DNA from: Trichodesmium sp. MAG_R03
GTDB lineage: Bacteria; Cyanobacteriota; Cyanobacteriia; Cyanobacteriales; Microcoleaceae
Reading direction: 5' to 3'
DNA length: 37,517 bases
NCBI GenBank assembly: GCA_023356535.1
Contig: JAKQYF010000020.1
Span: 1 to 37,517 of the forward strand
The translations under genes were made by a program, and so were the position numbers. Shown here one piece after another: positions 5,931-37,145 of the stretch (position 1 is its first letter; the number at the start of each line of letters is the position of its first letter). Below the pieces are notes generated by a model. It was not told the origin of the DNA, did not search any database, and saw only the letters and a list, made by a program, of their open reading frames with translations.

Positions 5931-6090
5931 AGGTAGTTGGATATATTTGTCTCTTAATTTTTATGCCATGGTTAGCCCAAAATACTAACTTTTCGATCTT
6001 GAAAGACTGAAAACCAGGCATTTTTGTTGACAAAAAAATGCTAAAACTTTTAACTATCAAGGCTTTTATATTTTATCAGCAAGCCCTAAT
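5931..6090 (+). repeat. Dispersed repeat R1, copy a
   Basis: About 160 bases that recur at 12,108-12,378 and 13,772-13,933. Shared landmarks in order: GTAG-(T/C)GGATATATTT, CCCAAAATACTAACTTTT, GACTGAAAACCAGG, a T-run/A-run hairpin (GCATTTTTG / CAAAAAAATGC here), and a right end TTTATCAGCAAGCCCTA. No open frame is conserved between copies. The right end also occurs alone, inverted, near 25,025 and 32,945. Confidence 0.8.
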
Positions 6091-6299
6091 TAATATTAAA
6101 TCTTCAATTATGAACTTGAAGGGAGAAAGGAAAACTCATGGAACCCAGAAAATTTTTGTGAACTAATGAGAGGAGAAAGGGTAACAGTTAGAATGGTCAT
6201 TCTACCTTTTCCTATTGTCTACCCTGTCTCTCTTTTCCCATAATTATGAGTGTTAACAATGCACAGTAGAAAGTTGTCTACTGAGGGGGGTATATCCCA

Positions 6300-12107: not shown

Positions 12108-12378
12108 TAGGAATGGTCAGTCCAAAATACTGACTTTTTAAGGTTGAAGGACTGAAAACCAAGCACTTTTTTCTACAAAAAAAGCTAAGGCTTTTATGTT
12201 TCAATGCTTTTATATAGCTATGAGCACTCACATATTTGCATATTACTATCGTCTTTAAATGTAGTATAAATTTCTGTTACTATATACCGATACTTTCACA
12301 TATATTACATTAAAAGCAATTTATATTATGCAAACATACCAGCGCACTTTGCTATATTTAATCAGCAAGCCCTACTTA
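12108..12378 (+). repeat. Dispersed repeat R1, copy b, split by an inserted element
   Basis: The left part (12,108-12,214) and right part (12,357-12,378) together reproduce copies a and c. The two are separated by a 140-base element at a TA dinucleotide. Landmarks CCAAAATACTGACTTTTT, GACTGAAAACC, the T-run/A-run hairpin (AGC / GCT base) and ATTTAATCAGCAAGCCCTA are all present. Confidence 0.8.
12213..12356 (+). mobile_element. Small TA-flanked inverted-repeat element (MITE M1), copy A
   Basis: About 140 bases. The left end reads TATAGCTATGAGCACTCACA; the right end, reverse-complemented, reads TATAGCAAAGTGCGCTGGTA, giving imperfect terminal inverted repeats of about 30 bases. Two other copies lie at 21,808-21,949 and (inverted) 24,610-24,753. 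No coding capacity. It interrupts repeat R1 between TTTTATA and TATTTAATCAG, where uninterrupted R1 copies read TTTTATATTTTATCAG and TTTAATATTTAATCAG, so insertion duplicated TA. TA duplication is typical of IS630/Tc1-mariner elements. Confidence 0.85.
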
Positions 12379-12411
12379 ATTGTGTAACCGCTTATTGCCA
12401 AGGGTTAATTG

Positions 12412-12569: not shown

Positions 12570-13322
12570 TTACAAATGAATTCTCATATATTCAGCTAAT
12601 TTTTGATTGTATGGTTGAAAATACTCTACTAATTCTTGATATATTTCTTCCTTGGGTTGTGAATAATTACCAGAATTATATTGAAGATATTTTTCTAAGG
12701 AATGTGAAGGTAGTTCCAAAAATTGAAATACTTTGTTCATAGTTTCTTGAGGGCAACTAAATAAGTTTTTACTTTTGAGTATGAGAAATTGTTCTTTGGG
12801 AAAAATGCTCATCCAATTTTGGAGTTGTTCAATATATTTGCCCCTTGCTAGATATGTATAATGTTGATGGTTAAAACTATAATATGTTCCTGTTTGAATG
12901 ATTTTATTAACTTCTCCTTCTAAGCGAGTTGATTCGGTAGCGATCGCCTTTTTCAAACTTAAAGATTCACATCCTAATCTTACTTCATGGTAGTAATGAG
13001 AAATAGCTCTTTCTGCTGGATCCCTCAAAATAACAATTAGTTTAATCTGAGGATACTTCTCAAAAACTCTTTGAGCTACTAGAGGATGAAATAAATAGTA
13101 AGGACTTGATTCTCCAGTAATCATTCCTGGTTCTAATTCTGGAAATTGTGATTGATACCATTCTAAATCTTTATCAAAATTTAAGTCGAAATAATGAACT
13201 TCATGTTGTAAAGAGGGAGCAACTAATGGATGTTGGACTAAATAGTTATATAAGGAATTAGTACCACATTTTTGCCCTCCAATCATCAAAAAATGAGGTT
13301 TATTGCTGTTAATTTTTGTCAT
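12570..13322 (-). CDS. Sulfotransferase (PAPS-dependent)
   Basis: The 250-residue product is expected to move a sulfuryl group from PAPS to a hydroxyl or amine of a carbohydrate or other acceptor. FLMIGGQKCGTNSLYNYL (residues 11-28) is the 5'-phosphosulfate-binding loop, and LIVILRDPAERAISHYYHE (about 94-112) is the 3'-phosphate-binding segment with Arg and Ser. ITGESSPYYL and the GKYIEQLQNW region are typical of the heparan-sulfate/NDST-like bacterial group. There is no membrane helix, so it is probably cytoplasmic. It sits in the glycan neighbourhood, suggesting sulfated surface polysaccharide. Start ATG; no Shine-Dalgarno. The stump of a tandem paralogue overlaps its start. Confidence 0.9.
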   Translation of the reverse strand: MTKINSNKPHFLMIGGQKCGTNSLYNYLVQHPLVAPSLQHEVHYFDLNFDKDLEWYQSQFPELEPGMITGESSPYYLFHPLVAQRVFEKYPQIKLIVILRDPAERAISHYYHEVRLGCESLSLKKAIATESTRLEGEVNKIIQTGTYYSFNHQHYTYLARGKYIEQLQNWMSIFPKEQFLILKSKNLFSCPQETMNKVFQFLELPSHSLEKYLQYNSGNYSQPKEEIYQELVEYFQPYNQKLAEYMRIHL

Positions 13323-13416
13323 TGATATGGTTGTGAAATTGTTTATTAAAGTTCATACCAATATATTCATTTAGTTTTTGATTATATGGTTGAAAATATT
13401 TAATTAATTTCTGATA
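13309..13416 (-). pseudogene. C-terminal stump of a second sulfotransferase
   Basis: The minus strand reads LYQKLIKYFQPYNQKLNEY, nearly the same as IYQELVEYFQPYNQKLAEY at the end of the intact sulfotransferase. About 14 extra residues then run to a TAA overlapping the start of the intact gene. Upstream the match stops exactly where repeat P begins (TACAGC at 13,415). This is the 3' end of a tandem duplicate whose front has been lost or displaced by the repeat. Confidence 0.8.
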
Positions 13417-13520
13417 CAGCGCTTTCCTTTGTTATGAGGTAGATTTACGCGGGCAAGATGCCCGCACTACATAATTTTTTAACATTTACCCTGTACATTA
13501 TTTGCCAGAAATCTGCTGTA
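13415..13520. repeat. Dispersed repeat P, copy 1
   Basis: About 105 bases that recur at 34,299-34,403. Shared landmarks: TACAG-G-TTTCC, AAGATGCCCGCACTA, ATTTACCCTGTACAT, and ATTTGCC-GAAATCTGCTGTA. The ends form a short inverted repeat (TACAGC / GCTGTA). The central GCGGGCAAGATGCCCGC folds as a hairpin in this copy. No coding capacity. It abuts the truncated sulfotransferase stump. Confidence 0.75.
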
Positions 13521-13771
13521 TGTTTTTGAATCAATAAGCTGTTAACCCACATTCCGCACTTCAAATATACTACCAAGGTCTTTTCAACAAAGAAGGTGGA
13601 TTACAGCCTCTGTTATTGCTAATAATTATTAATATTTTTTTGTAATATGTATTTTTGCTGACAAAGTTCATAGTTAGGATCTGCTGATCAAAAGTCTTTT
13701 TAAAAAAGCAGAGGAGTCGGTAGGGACTTTCATGCAACGTCCCTACATAAGAATAGGGAATGTATAGACTC

Positions 13772-13933
13772 AGGTAGTCGGATATATTTCTCCATTGATT
13801 TTTCGGGCATGGGAGCGCCCAAAATACTAACTTTTTCAGCCTTATTGGACCGAAAACTAGGTGGTTTTTTCGACAAAAAAAAGGCTAAGACCTTTATGTG
13901 TCAATCCTTTAATATTTAATCAGCAAGCCCTAG
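13772..13933 (+). repeat. Dispersed repeat R1, copy c
   Basis: Uninterrupted copy of R1: GTAGTCGGATATATTTC, CCCAAAATACTAACTTTTT, GACCGAAAACTAGG, a TTTTTT/AAAAAAAA hairpin and ATTTAATCAGCAAGCCCTA. It supplies the empty site for the element inserted in copy b. Confidence 0.8.
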
Positions 13934-14052
13934 TTATTATCAGGCAAAGCTTTTAATGACCAGTCTGAAATACTACATTTTGATGTGGGGAATGTAAGTG
14001 TTAAGCATTTAAATGACGTATAATAGAAATAAGACAATCAGGAGAATACTGA

Positions 14053-14379
14053 AATATACCAGCTAAAGGGTATCTCAAGCTAGAGCAAAAAGAAAGACTA
14101 CAAAAAGCTTTAAAAGAGGAAGAAAATGTAGAAATTAGGGAAAGGATTTTTATCCTACTGTTGTTAGATGATGGAAAAACCCAGGAGATAATAGCTAAAT
14201 TTCTGGGCTGCGGGACCAAGAAAGTGTCCTATTGGTGTATTCACGGAAAGCCAGATAATCTGGAAAGTTTAAGAGATAAAAGATAGTCCAGATTACAAGC
14301 TAGTTGAATTGGTTTGGCATTCAGCCAAAGAGTATATTGCTAATCGTCTTTTCAAATCAATTGAAGAGTTAAGGTATGA
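14053..14379 (+). pseudogene. IS630-family transposase, internally deleted
   Basis: The front half reads PAKGYLKLEQKERLQKALKE, then ERIFILLLLDDGKTQEIIAK and KKVSYWCIHGKPDNLESL. This is the helix-turn-helix N-terminus of IS630-type transposases, ending at TAG near 14,284. Immediately after, in another frame, comes SPDYKLVELVWHSAKEYIAN then RLFKSIEELR, the far C-terminus of the same family. The catalytic DDE middle (roughly 150-200 residues) is missing, and the join lies at about 14,283. Upstream is an in-frame stop, with no obvious start codon. It cannot be active. A minus-strand frame over it (14,001-14,219) is only a shadow. Confidence 0.8.
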
Positions 14380-14747
14380 TTCCTTCCCTCTATGATTTTC
14401 TTCACTATTATATATTATTAACTTATATTAAGTACAGCTTCATAGAGAATTGGTATAAGGTTGCATCGCCGATAAAATTGTGATATTATAAGTTTAATAG
14501 TGGTTCTTGGAAAATATACATGATTTTTTATTCAACAAAGAAAGACTATATTGATCAGCAAAAATTTTCCCCCAAACCATTGTGGGCGATCGCCTAAAAT
14601 TAATTATCATTTTCTGAAACTTTAACAAAACTATCAGTGTAGTTAGGTAGTATCGCCAAAAAAAATTGTGATACTGTATGTATTTATAGAGTTATTTAAC
14701 TATGAAATTTAGTTACCCCAAACCAAATCCTGTAGCTACAAGCCAAA
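14380..14747. other. Gene-free stretch downstream of dnaJ
   Basis: No gene seen. It has one HIP1 site (near 14,587) and a pair of similar short sequences, GCATCGCCGATAAAATTGTGAT (about 14,464-14,484) and GTATCGCCAAAAAAAATTGTGAT (about 14,649-14,671). The pair suggests a local duplicated repeat. Confidence 0.4.
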
Positions 14748-21455: not shown

Positions 21456-21543
21456 AGGACTTACGCAAAGGCACTAATTATAGTGTAAAGATCTAAAATA
21501 ATCACCAAAAATACATCATATATAGCGGTACTGCGTAAGTCCT
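21456..21543. mobile_element. Small element Z with AGGACTTACGCA ends, copy 1
   Basis: 88 bases bounded by AGGACTTACGCA and TGCGTAAGTCCT, a perfect 12-base terminal inverted repeat. The interior is non-coding. It cuts a transposase remnant on its left. A second copy with both ends is at 32,781-32,870, and one left end at 23,143 interrupts a glycosyltransferase gene. Confidence 0.8.
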
Positions 21544-21807: not shown

Positions 21808-21949
21808 TATAGCAATGAGCGCTCACATATTTACATATTACTATAGTATTTAAATGTAGTATAAATTCTGTTCGTATTATCAATACTTTCATATATATTA
21901 TATTAGTAGTATTTTGTAATATGCAAACATACCAGCACACTTTGCTATA
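21808..21949 (+). mobile_element. MITE M1, copy B
   Basis: 142 bases: left end TATAGCAATGAGCGCTCACA, interior TATTACTATAGTATTTAAAT, right end ACCAGCACACTTTGCTATA. It matches copies A and C along its length. A 69-codon minus-strand frame across it is meaningless. Confidence 0.85.
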
Positions 21950-23265: not shown

Positions 23266-23359
23266 TATAGTCATTCCGAATAAGAATGGGATACTTTTTT
23301 AGCGAAAAACCCTTTCACAGCAAGAAAATCTTGTCTCAATCTAAATCAGAATGACTATA
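23266..23359 (+). mobile_element. Small element M3, copy X
   Basis: 94 bases with ends TATAGTCATTCCGAATAAGA and TCTAAATCAGAATGACTATA (terminal inverted repeat TATAGTCATTC). It aligns over its whole length with 24,283-24,375, including CAGCAAGAAA and TCTCAATCTAAAT. TA at each border is compatible with TA-targeting. Non-coding. Confidence 0.75.
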
Positions 23360-24300: not shown

Positions 24301-24375
24301 AAATGAAACACTTTTTCTGCTGAAACTTAGTCATAGCAAGAAATAGTTATCTCAATCTAAATTAAAATGACTATA
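24283..24375 (+). mobile_element. Small element M3, copy Y, at the 3' end of the GT61 gene
   Basis: 93 bases from TATAGTTATTTCAAATAAAA to AAATTAAAATGACTATA, aligned end to end with copy X. It supplies the last residues and stop codon of the preceding open frame. Confidence 0.75.
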
Positions 24376-24589: not shown

Positions 24590-24815
24590 TATAGCAATGA
24601 GCCCTGGCATATAGCAACGTGCGCTCGTATGTTTACATGGGACAAATTGCTACTAATATAGTACATGTGAAAGTATTGGTAATAGTAGCAGAAATTTGTA
24701 CTACATTTTCCAGACTATAGTAATATATAAATATGTGAGCACTCATTGCTATACTTGCTACTACTATTGTATTTAAGGGTAGTAAATACTCTGCTACATG
24801 AGCGATATTTTTCAT
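24590..24815 (+). mobile_element. Degenerate MITE M1, copy D, interrupted by copy C
   Basis: The left piece TATAGCAATGAGCCCTGGCA (24,590-24,609) and the right piece starting after 24,753, CTTGCTACTACTATTGTATT then TAAGGGTAGTAAATACTCTG, join to match the left half of copy B (TATAGCAATGAGCGCTCACA ... TATTACTATAGTATTTAAAT ... GTAGTATAAATTCTG). The right half has diverged. The gap is exactly filled by copy C. Confidence 0.6.
24610..24753 (-). mobile_element. MITE M1, copy C, inverted and nested in copy D
   Basis: Starts TATAGCAACGTGCGCTCGTA (the right end of copy B, inverted) and ends TGTGAGCACTCATTGCTATA. The full length matches copies A and B in reverse. It sits at a TA inside copy D. A 60-codon minus frame over it is spurious. 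Confidence 0.8.
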
Positions 24816-25429
24816 CTGTGCTAGAACTCCGTTCCCCTGTCGCGAGCAAACTCACCTTAAAGTTTGATATCTATTACCTGTAAACTTTTCTACCTGTATC
24901 TTGATATAGGGAGTAGGGGAATAGTAAAAATTAAGAATAATTAATACTAACTGGTTAATAATCATCAAAAAGATGATTTGGTCTGTGTTAATTACTTCAT
25001 AGTTGAAGTGTCGTTTAAGTAGGGCTAGCTGATTAATTCTCAAAGTATTGACACAAATTATACTCATAGCCAAATTAAGGAGTTTCAAAAAGGACCAGAA
25101 GTTCTGTGGCTCAAGCTCATGCATAGAAAGGATTTCCGCCATACCTAGGCCGAAAAATCAGGGGACAATTCTTACTACACCAGACCTGTTGACCAAGCCA
25201 TTTATCCGTGCCGACCTGCTTCCGTGTTTCTGTGCTGACCTGCAACAATCCTCACCCCATTTGAAAATCCATATCCTAACCCTAAGTATAGCATTGCTTA
25301 TGGGAATTGGTATTATAGACTCCCGCGTTGGACTTTGATTTAACAGACAACTAAAAAATCATAGTATTATGTGAGCGCGATCGCCACCTTCATGGAACCA
25401 AGCCTATCAAAGAAATAATTGATATCTTT
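24816..25429. other. Gene-free stretch with scattered repeat ends
   Basis: Two overlapping 96-codon frames (24,852-25,142 minus and 25,048-25,338 plus) have no recognisable content. Near 25,020-25,040 TAGGGCTAGCTGATTAATTC is a lone inverted right end of repeat R1. A HIP1 site lies at 25,376. The part near 25,140-25,330 is GC-richer, but no function is visible. Confidence 0.45.
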
Positions 25430-25905
25430 CGCCACTACGGAAAAACTTGAGGTAGTTCAAGTGCATCTGCATCTACACCCAATACAAAAATTATCAAATT
25501 CCTTGAGTCTTTGTCTGAGCCAATTTTTTCACACAAACCACCAACGTTCTATCTGATTAAAATCTAGGGATAATGGTGGTAAATACCAGATCTTACACTT
25601 GGCTTTGGCCACTAATTATTGAATATAAACTGATTTATGAAATGTTGTATTATCCAGTACGATAACTTGTCCCGGTTGTAATTTTGGTAGTCAACAATTT
25701 TCTAACCAGTTCTCAAACAAATCACGATCACAACTTCGGTGTAAATGCTAAAGAAACAAACATTTTTGATTGATTTATAGCTGCACAAAAACTTACTATC
25801 TCAGTTTTTTTTCCTAACTTCTAATGGTGGTACTCTTGTTCCAATTCTATATAACCATAGGGATAATCTTCTGGCTTATCTATTCTGGATTCATATACAT
25901 ATACA
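25430..25905 (-). pseudogene. IS630-family transposase remnant (catalytic half)
   Basis: The minus strand reads ESRIDKPEDYPYGYIELEQE, then KLGKKTEIVSFCAAINQSKM, DRDLFENWLENC, LPKLQPGQVIVLDNTTFHKS, LVAKAKCKIWYLPPLSLDFN, QIERWWFV and KNWLRQRLKEFDNF. This is the DDE half of an IS630 transposase, with Asp in VLDN and Glu in NQIE. It is broken by at least one frameshift (near 25,733) and several stops, including TGA codons where Trp would be expected. The N-terminal half is not found next to it. Together with the deleted copy at 14,053 it shows IS630 elements once lived here. Confidence 0.85.
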
Positions 25906-26158
25906 ATCTTTATATACAAAAATAATTTTGTGTACCTATTTAGGTATAGAAATGGTTACAAAACCATATCTACAATAGAGTTGTCGCTAAATAGAGGGAA
26001 AAATCGCTCCAACCTAGACAGAGCAATAATTTCAAGTTTTTTAACTTGCCAATAGCTACAATCTTTACAGAACAAGGTTTTTGGTGATTTTTAAGTTATA
26101 AAGCGACAAGTCTAATGATGTCAGTTTGACAATATTTTTGAGTTTATTCGACTGATTC

Positions 26159-26635: not shown

Positions 26636-27414
26636 AGGAAAATTCCTCCAGACTTTGAATTTTACTTGTTTAAATTACAAAAAACTACAACTTAGTTAAC
26701 TGAGATTTATTGAACACAAAACAAGAGCAGAATCAAAAAAAACTGCTCAGACTTTGAAATGTAAAAAACTTTGACAAATAGTTATATTCATTGTTACTAC
26801 AAATGAAATTATTTCCCATTTCCCATTTTCCATTTTGGTCAACTTTGGCAAATAATTTTATTGTGTCAGGTTTTTCTTTAAACTTTTTGCTCATCAATCA
26901 ACAAACAAAACTATAGGCCTTGGTTAATTACTTTTTTTGATATTGATTTGCTAAACGTTGATCATCCAACTTTATAAATATCACTTTAAAGCCTGCTAAA
27001 CTCAAACAACCCAATTGCTCATATGATAACTAACTAGGCAGAATTAATTACCTAATTTGATTGCCAAATCACTGGGAAAATATGCTTTTCAGCTTCAAAG
27101 TATTTGTAATTAATCCTGCATAACTACTTATTAATTTAAAGTATACTTCCTACTGGGTAAAGACTAAAACTTTAATCATAATATTTTACTTATTTTTCAA
27201 CTAAACCGGCAATGCTTACAGCTTATCTTTCCAGCGGTCAGTTATTGACCAGTATAAACTTATCATAATCCTAAGTCAATATCTACTATTTTTCTTAAAT
27301 TTAACTATTTAGCGAAAAATTGGGTTTAAAGCCTCGCCCATAAGCGGGCGACTATTTTAGTTGATTTCTTTTCACAGGTCATGTTATGATGTTTTTTAAT
27401 TCACAAGAAATATA
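26636..27414. promoter_or_regulatory. Long region upstream of the RRM gene
   Basis: Nearly 780 bases without a credible gene. It should contain the promoter and 5' leader of the RRM gene. A short tandem stretch of CATTTCCCATTTTCCATTTT type lies near 26,815-26,835. No specific regulatory motif can be assigned. Confidence 0.35.
27334..27351 (-). terminator. Hairpin downstream of the small membrane protein gene
   Basis: TCGCCC (27,334-27,339) pairs with GGGCGA (27,346-27,351). On the minus strand the stem is followed by AGGCTTTAAACCCAATTTTT. It lies 65 bases past the stop of the small minus-strand frame, so it may terminate it. Confidence 0.35.
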
Positions 27415-36098: not shown

Positions 36099-36629
36099 AT
36101 GTTATTAACTACAGAATTATTTATCGCTTTTAAATGGTTTGGTATTGCTACAATTGGATTTTTTCTTTTGACAACTCTTGGCTTTATTTTGAATTGGGAA
36201 TTTAGATTTAGATTGGTGGGAATAACAGGTTTTATGGGAGTTTTAACTGTTGGTTTATTTGGCTTAAGTTTAGGATTATTCAACCGGGTAGAAATTCCAG
36301 GAGCAGTTCCATATACATTAGTTTATGATAATGGTGCAACTCAAACAGTAATAGCTGTTTCTCCTACTATTACAGAACCGGAATTAGCAGCAACTATGGA
36401 ACAAGCAGCAGGAGATTTATTTTCTCTAGGTCGTTTAGGTGGAGAGGATAAATTAACTATTAGAGTCAGAACTATTATTCATCCAGAAGAAGGTGTTTCT
36501 CAACCACTTTATTTAGGGAAGGTGAAGCGTTCTTTATATCAACGGGAAGATGAAAATATAGATATTAAAATATTTCCTGAAACTTTGGCAAAGTTGGTAG
36601 ATTATCAGAGTCATAATTTGGAGAGTTAA
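36099..36629 (+). CDS. ycf51: Ycf51 family protein
   Basis: 176 residues from ATG 36,099. Two membrane helices fill the front: FKWFGIATIGFFLLTTLGFI (about 8-27) and VGITGFMGVLTVGLFGLSLG. A soluble domain follows: IPGAVPYTLVYDNGATQTVI, ELAATMEQAAGDLFSLGRLG and TIRVRTIIHPEEGVSQPLYL. This matches the conserved Ycf51 protein of cyanobacteria and some plastids, whose function is unknown. An upstream TTG (36,045) would add 18 Lys/Tyr-rich residues; I prefer the ATG because family members start next to the first helix. A 54-base piece of its coding sequence recurs downstream at 36,807. Confidence 0.88.
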   Translation: MLLTTELFIAFKWFGIATIGFFLLTTLGFILNWEFRFRLVGITGFMGVLTVGLFGLSLGLFNRVEIPGAVPYTLVYDNGATQTVIAVSPTITEPELAATMEQAAGDLFSLGRLGGEDKLTIRVRTIIHPEEGVSQPLYLGKVKRSLYQREDENIDIKIFPETLAKLVDYQSHNLES

Positions 36630-36653: not shown

Positions 36654-37145
36654 AATGGGCTGAAAAGTCTTTCTATTTAATGTAGGTTGGGTAGAACGAA
36701 GTGAAACCCAACAAAGCTTAATTATTGTTGGCTTTTGTCCCTCAGGTACGCTTATTAATGTTGGCCCTAGAAGAAGGAAGCGACACCAAACAAAACTTAA
36801 TTTTAGTCGTTTAGGTGGAGAGGATAAATTAACTATTAGAGTCAGAACTATTATTCATCCAATGGGTTGAAAAAGTCTTTCTATGTCATATAGGTTGGGT
36901 AGAACGAAGTGAAACCCAACAAAGCTTGATTATGGCTGAGTTTTGTCCCTCAAGTACCCTTATTAATGTCGGCCCTTGTAGTTGGGTTTTGTCCCTCAAC
37001 CCAACCTACCCTTATTGCATCATTTTAGCTATGTCAATAACTTAACTATATCAATGTCGGCTTTTGTAGAAGGAAGTGAAACCCAACAAAACTTAATTGT
37101 AGTCGGGTTTTGTATCTCAACCCAACCTAATCTTATTATACCATT
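36654..37145 (+). repeat. Array of AACGAAGTGAAACCCAAC-type repeats with a ycf51 fragment
   Basis: Unit 1 (36,654-36,767) and unit 2 (36,861-36,975) share AAGTCTTTCTAT, TAGGTTGGGTAGAACGAAGT, GAAACCCAACAAAGCTT, TTTTGTCCCTCA and TTATTAATGT-GGCCCT. A more degenerate unit lies at 37,050-37,130. TTGGGT and ACCCAA arms make each unit a hairpin. Between units 1 and 2, bases 36,807-36,860 are identical over 54 bases to 36,431-36,484 inside ycf51. The stretch CCTTATTGCATCATTTTAGC near 37,009 recurs as TCTTATTATACCATTTTAGC near 37,132. No gene in the array. Confidence 0.85.

Follow-up and report, generated by a model that had tools for sequence, protein, structure and literature searches.

M1, a short TA-flanked element of Trichodesmium, and its probable relation to an IS630 element

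The window, by which we mean the whole stretch of 37,517 nucleotides analyzed from Trichodesmium sp. MAG_R03, carries three copies (A, B and C) of a short element, M1, together with several other repeats and the remains of an IS630 element (Table 1). Copy A lies within R1, a repeat of about 200 bp with at least 44 copies in the genome at 77-93% identity; the 430 candidates seen in a first look suggest many more copies than 44. M1 is inserted into R1 at two different TA sites. A sulfotransferase gene (12570-13431, 250 aa) has part of its 3' end repeated upstream of its start (12586-12662 compared with 13361-13437, 75%). An imperfect palindrome of about 87 bp at 21457-21543, GGACTTACGC...GCGTAAGTCC, is repeated across the genome and serves as an M1 target (L007, L017). 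Two identical 56-nt direct repeats are found at 36430-36485 and 36806-36861, with a spacing of 376 nt, and further degenerate repeats around this pair reach 37157.

The window also holds M2, a second TA-flanked MITE of 94 bp (23266-23359, TATAGTCATTC...GAATGACTATA) present in at least 40 copies. M2 is young, as these copies are 95-100% identical. An IS630 element of the same genome at C478 (L052:1040-1984, 945 bp, one stop) has similar ends, and a degraded partial copy of M2 at 24331-24375 is 84% identical to 23315-23359. At C79, one M2 copy is nested in an M1 copy, at a TA and with TA duplication. We rejected an 1878-bp element at C79 as an autonomous copy, as it is an M1 holding a different nested IS and M2, beside an IS630 gene remnant.

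Table 1. Positions of M1, R1 and the dead IS630 partner in the window
Feature	Position	Strand	Remark
R1 without M1 (empty-site homologue)	5931-6094	+	empty-site homologue 5968-6094
R1, part left of copy A	12113-12212	+	
M1 copy A	12213-12356	-	144 bp including both flanking TA; element proper 12215-12354
TA target duplication at copy A	12213-12214 (left), 12355-12356 (right)		R1 copies align to the joined flanks with a single TA
R1, part right of copy A	12357-12382	+	
R1 without M1 (empty-site homologue)	13735-13945	+	
M1 copy B	21808-21949	-	142 bp
Dead partner, overall	24590-25911		
Dead partner, outer part of 3' terminal repeat	24590-24609	-	severed by copy C
M1 copy C	24610-24753	+	at a TA within the 3' terminal repeat of the dead partner
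Dead partner, remainder of 3' end	24754-24869	-	
Stretch without partner match between 3' end and body	24870-25314		diverged R1 fragment at 25015-25055
Dead partner body, IS630 transposase remnant (DDE_3)	25315-25911	-	77-84% nucleotide identity to partner elements

The M1 family and its target sites

Copy B is 86% identical to copy A, and copy C, which is oriented opposite, is 83% identical to copy B. The M1 strand is given in the sense of the partner transposase described below, so that copy A has its GTGC end, corresponding to the partner 5' end, on the right. The consensus of 38 copies measures 143 nt, starts with TATAGCAATGAGCACTCACATATTTACATATTACTATC and finishes with GTAATATGTAAACATACCAGCGCACGTTGCTATA; its termini form a 34-nt imperfect inverted repeat in which 27 of 34 positions are identical. 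The ends are fixed as TATAGC...GCTATA in every verified copy, and beyond them we found an A/T bias only and no fixed sequence. The longest stop-free stretch in copies A-C spans 47 aa. A preliminary description of the window had placed the three copies correctly, and the imperfect ends of about 30 bases and the lack of a coding frame that it reported agree with these figures.

Searching the genome with copy B, as had been proposed there, gave 41 matches at 80-100% identity, nearly all of full length. Allowing up to three mismatches, the M1 terminal pattern was matched 63 and 61 times genome-wide compared with 0 matches for the reversed-pattern control, which is far above chance. Counting ends in this way yields about 62 copies, while the individually verified set comprises 43 distinct two-ended copies, 136-147 bp long in 38 cases and longer in five. 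TA flanks both sides in 40 of the 43. Short, multi-copy and non-coding, with fixed inverted-repeat ends and a target duplication, M1 is a MITE.

To read the target duplication, we brought the two flanks of every copy together with 0, 2 (TA) or 4 (TATA) bases between them and searched for homologues of the resulting sequences. An uninterrupted homologue spanning the join was available for 12 copies, mostly in the form of paralogous repeats, not of orthologous loci, and the TA version fitted best in all 12. It was gapless at the join in 11 of them, copy C having a 1-nt gap nearby, while the 0-base and TATA versions had two gap positions each (three for copy C). Besides copy A, clear empty-site pairs were L025 with L041 (95.7%), L026 with L054 (93.9%) and L018 with position 27042 of the window (88.8%). 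At the target dinucleotide, nine of the best homologues have TA, two have CA and one has GA; the three homologues with CA or GA are diverged relatives of the target and not the ancestral site. Two further copies (L019, L035_3764) gave a spanning match in the zero-base version only, with a gap at the join, and, for lack of a clear target, were counted neither as support nor as exception. For copy A, the joined flanks align with the two R1 copies at 84% over 87 nt (6008-6094) and 84% over 85 nt (13852-13936), in both cases with a single TA and gapless across the join. These alignments uphold the earlier view that copy A interrupts R1 at a TA and that intact R1 copies display the joined sequence. 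Unfixed ends, a general lack of TA flanks or empty sites unrelated to the flanks of copy A, each of which would speak against that view, were not encountered.

The IS630 partner and its remains in the window

End-only matches in the genomes of relatives led to full elements with M1 ends around a transposase gene, which we refer to as the partner: an IS630-family element of about 1.4 kb present in Okeania, in another Microcoleaceae genome and in Trichodesmium. The search for IS630 elements sharing the M1 terminal repeats, also suggested in the preliminary description, was thus successful. Elements of 1370 bp (L089), 1419 bp (L072) and 1459 bp (L125) were found, as well as a degraded one of 1373 bp from the same genus, Trichodesmium (L073), which keeps both ends and has broken frames. 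Full copies have TA at both ends, except for one TG end in L073. In L089 the M1-type ends enclose two overlapping frames that match HTH_Tnp_IS630, DDE_3 and the NCBIfam IS630 model. With scores of 129.7 bits for PF13358 (cut-off 28.6), 48.7 bits for PF01710 (cut-off 21.3) and, for the catalytic part, 137.4 bits for NF033545 (cut-off 100), the predicted product is a transposase of the IS630 family. Its putative triad, placed by reading the sequence, is DD34E, with 34 residues between the second D and the E.

In a further copy from the same genus (L123) both frames are open; the contig includes its 3' end and stops short of its 5' end. We did not accept L125 as an intact partner, as it reads through an A10 run but has three stops, nor the 1086-bp L077 as a full one, as its ends match and its transposase is truncated. 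The two frames meet at A9 in L089, L072, L077, L123 and a remnant in the own genome (L122), and at A8 or A10 in other copies. The conserved A9 junction suggests programmed -1 frameshifting or transcript slippage.

Joining the flanks of copy C (24590-24609, TA, 24754 onward) restores a sequence that shares 83% identity with the 3' ends of both L125 and L089, which indicates that copy C landed in the terminal repeat of a member of its parent family. The preliminary description had mentioned two dead IS630 transposases nearby. The one beside copy C is clear (DDE_3 at 72.6 bits, eight stops), whereas the second candidate at about 14053-14392 scores 21.1 bits for DDE_3, below the cut-off, and no M1-type end was found there. 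The relevant dead IS630 is, as judged by its sequence, the corpse of the partner itself. Elsewhere in the own genome, a remnant at C20 came to light by protein search only, consisting of one end (5') and an N-terminal part of the transposase, with 74% identity. Apart from the locus in the window, no IS630 gene of this genome found by Pfam had M1-type ends at its boundaries, and the assembly (93% complete, 486 contigs) yielded no intact partner, which makes present mobility doubtful.

Probable origin and proposed mobilisation of M1

The M1 left (GAGC) end shares homology with the partner 3' end for about 40 nt past the terminal repeat. Comparing M1 positions 35-80 with the partner 3' end gave z-scores of 8.1 (L089) and 9.5 (L125), and none of 500 shuffles was as good. 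In addition, M1 keeps the letters that are specific for each end, GTGC of the partner 5' end and GAGC of the partner 3' end. In contrast to the left end, the right (GTGC) end did not match the 5' end of the partners compared past the terminal repeat. We conclude from both ends that M1 would have kept about 70 nt of the partner 3' end and little beyond the repeat at the 5' end. The partners seen offered no source for the GTGC end and the interior (about nt 75-110), and accordingly none of them was identified as the exact parent of M1. With a probability of roughly 93%, M1 belongs to the type I MITEs and, at about 140 bp, is what internal deletion left of an IS630/Tc1-mariner element of approximately 1.4 kb from the Trichodesmium/Okeania lineage. 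An independent origin, in which M1 acquired its ends by chance or recombination and was merely captured by the IS630 transposase, would account for a right half and interior that lack partner homology past the terminal repeat; we consider it improbable, given the homology of the left end past the repeat and the conserved end-specific letters.

The pairwise identity of 38 M1 copies averages 77% and reaches 90% at most, which points to an old burst. This free divergence also bears on the idea that the copy number reflects function and that selection retains M1 because it acts as a terminator, a promoter or a hairpin in transcripts. Copy B does fold somewhat better than its shuffles (z -2.4, 3 of 200), as any sequence with inverted-repeat ends would, but the copies diverge, they sit in other repeats that have decayed, and further insertions have broken up several of them, all of which makes selective maintenance very improbable. 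Least credible of all is movement by another group of transposases that duplicate TA, for instance the IS427 group within IS5: duplication of TA is by itself not diagnostic of IS630, but wherever M1 ends were found flanking a transposase, the element carries an IS630-type DDE_3 gene.

Derivation from the IS630 partner is therefore the reading we follow, and the earlier proposal that the TA duplication and the structure of M1 fit mobilisation by an IS630/Tc1-mariner transposase gains support from the shared ends and from the one-TA fit in 12 of 12 copies. The step in trans is drawn by analogy with ISY100, an IS630/Tc1-mariner element of Synechocystis sp. PCC 6803 whose transposase cuts at the element ends and directs insertion almost exclusively to TA, which is duplicated, and for which mini-elements with 30 bp of each end suffice for transposition (PMC2170065). 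By this analogy M1 would be served in trans by the partner transposase, whose two frames probably become one product through a -1 shift on A9. The transposase would bind the M1 ends, excise the element and insert it at TA sites, many of them inside other intergenic repeats. The burst would be an old one, and the partner appears to be dead in this genome now, as far as searched.

Age, distribution and comparison with known systems

M1 or its ends were found in 13 of the 59 genomes searched, the own genome included: all seven of Trichodesmium, five of a second genus and one of a third. Trichodesmium sp. MAG_R04 (G006), Trichodesmium erythraeum GBRTRLIN201 (G005), Okeania sp. SIO3B5 (G018) and Microcoleaceae cyanobacterium MO_207.B10 (G013) are among the genomes compared. 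In the public genome collection, the strict M1 end pattern matched only in Trichodesmium, Okeania and one further Microcoleaceae genome. M1 thus appears to be confined to the Trichodesmium/Okeania lineage, as far as searched. One insertion is common to a relative (G001, C67) and the own genome (C140), with flank identities of 93% across 654 nt on one side and 87% across 195 nt on the other, and we infer that at least one M1 insertion is older than the split from the nearest relative.

M1 and its partner give, for a nitrogen-fixing genus of ecological importance, both a MITE family and the autonomous family from which it derives, and the corpse of the parent and its MITE derivative are nested in one window. 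Insertions are stacked, M2 in M1, M1 in R1 and M1 in the terminal repeat of its own dead partner. Where such nested insertions have readable empty sites, the order of past transposition bursts can be reconstructed. It is possible, though we would not yet lean that way, that the stacked insertions and the M1 copy shared with a sister genome amount to a readable relative clock, recording one IS630-driven burst after another, and that these bursts produced part of the non-coding DNA in Trichodesmium genomes.

Bacteria are well known to carry IS630 elements and MITEs of these, so the interest of M1 is modest: the family is new, and its kind, the type I MITE of an IS630 element, is already known. 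Among the papers that full-text searches for Trichodesmium with MITE or IS630 brought up, none has a title or abstract describing M1; the literature collection is incomplete and leaves ISfinder outside its scope, so M1 may already bear a name. Stowaway-type MITEs of eukaryotes are short deletion-type derivatives that duplicate TA and are moved in trans by mariner-like transposases. They are likened to M1 by this general description and differ from it in their hosts.

Among cyanobacteria, Nezha (Zhou et al. 2008, via PMC10969869), compared here by its title alone, is a short non-coding MITE with terminal inverted repeats. The MITEs of Anabaena sp. 90 resemble M1 in being cyanobacterial, multi-copy, 77-541 bp long and mostly intergenic (PMC3542288). 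However, they were classed as type II, their ends being found on none of the IS in that genome (PMC3542288), whereas M1 is of type I, with ends common to IS630. ISY100 resembles the M1 partner as a cyanobacterial IS630 element with short imperfect terminal repeats, and like M1 it targets TA, with duplication of the TA (PMC2170065). It is 947 bp long, with 24-bp repeats and a single frame of 282 aa (PMC2170065), whereas the M1 partner measures 1.37-1.46 kb, has repeats of about 34 nt and two frames meeting at A9, and M1 itself is geneless.
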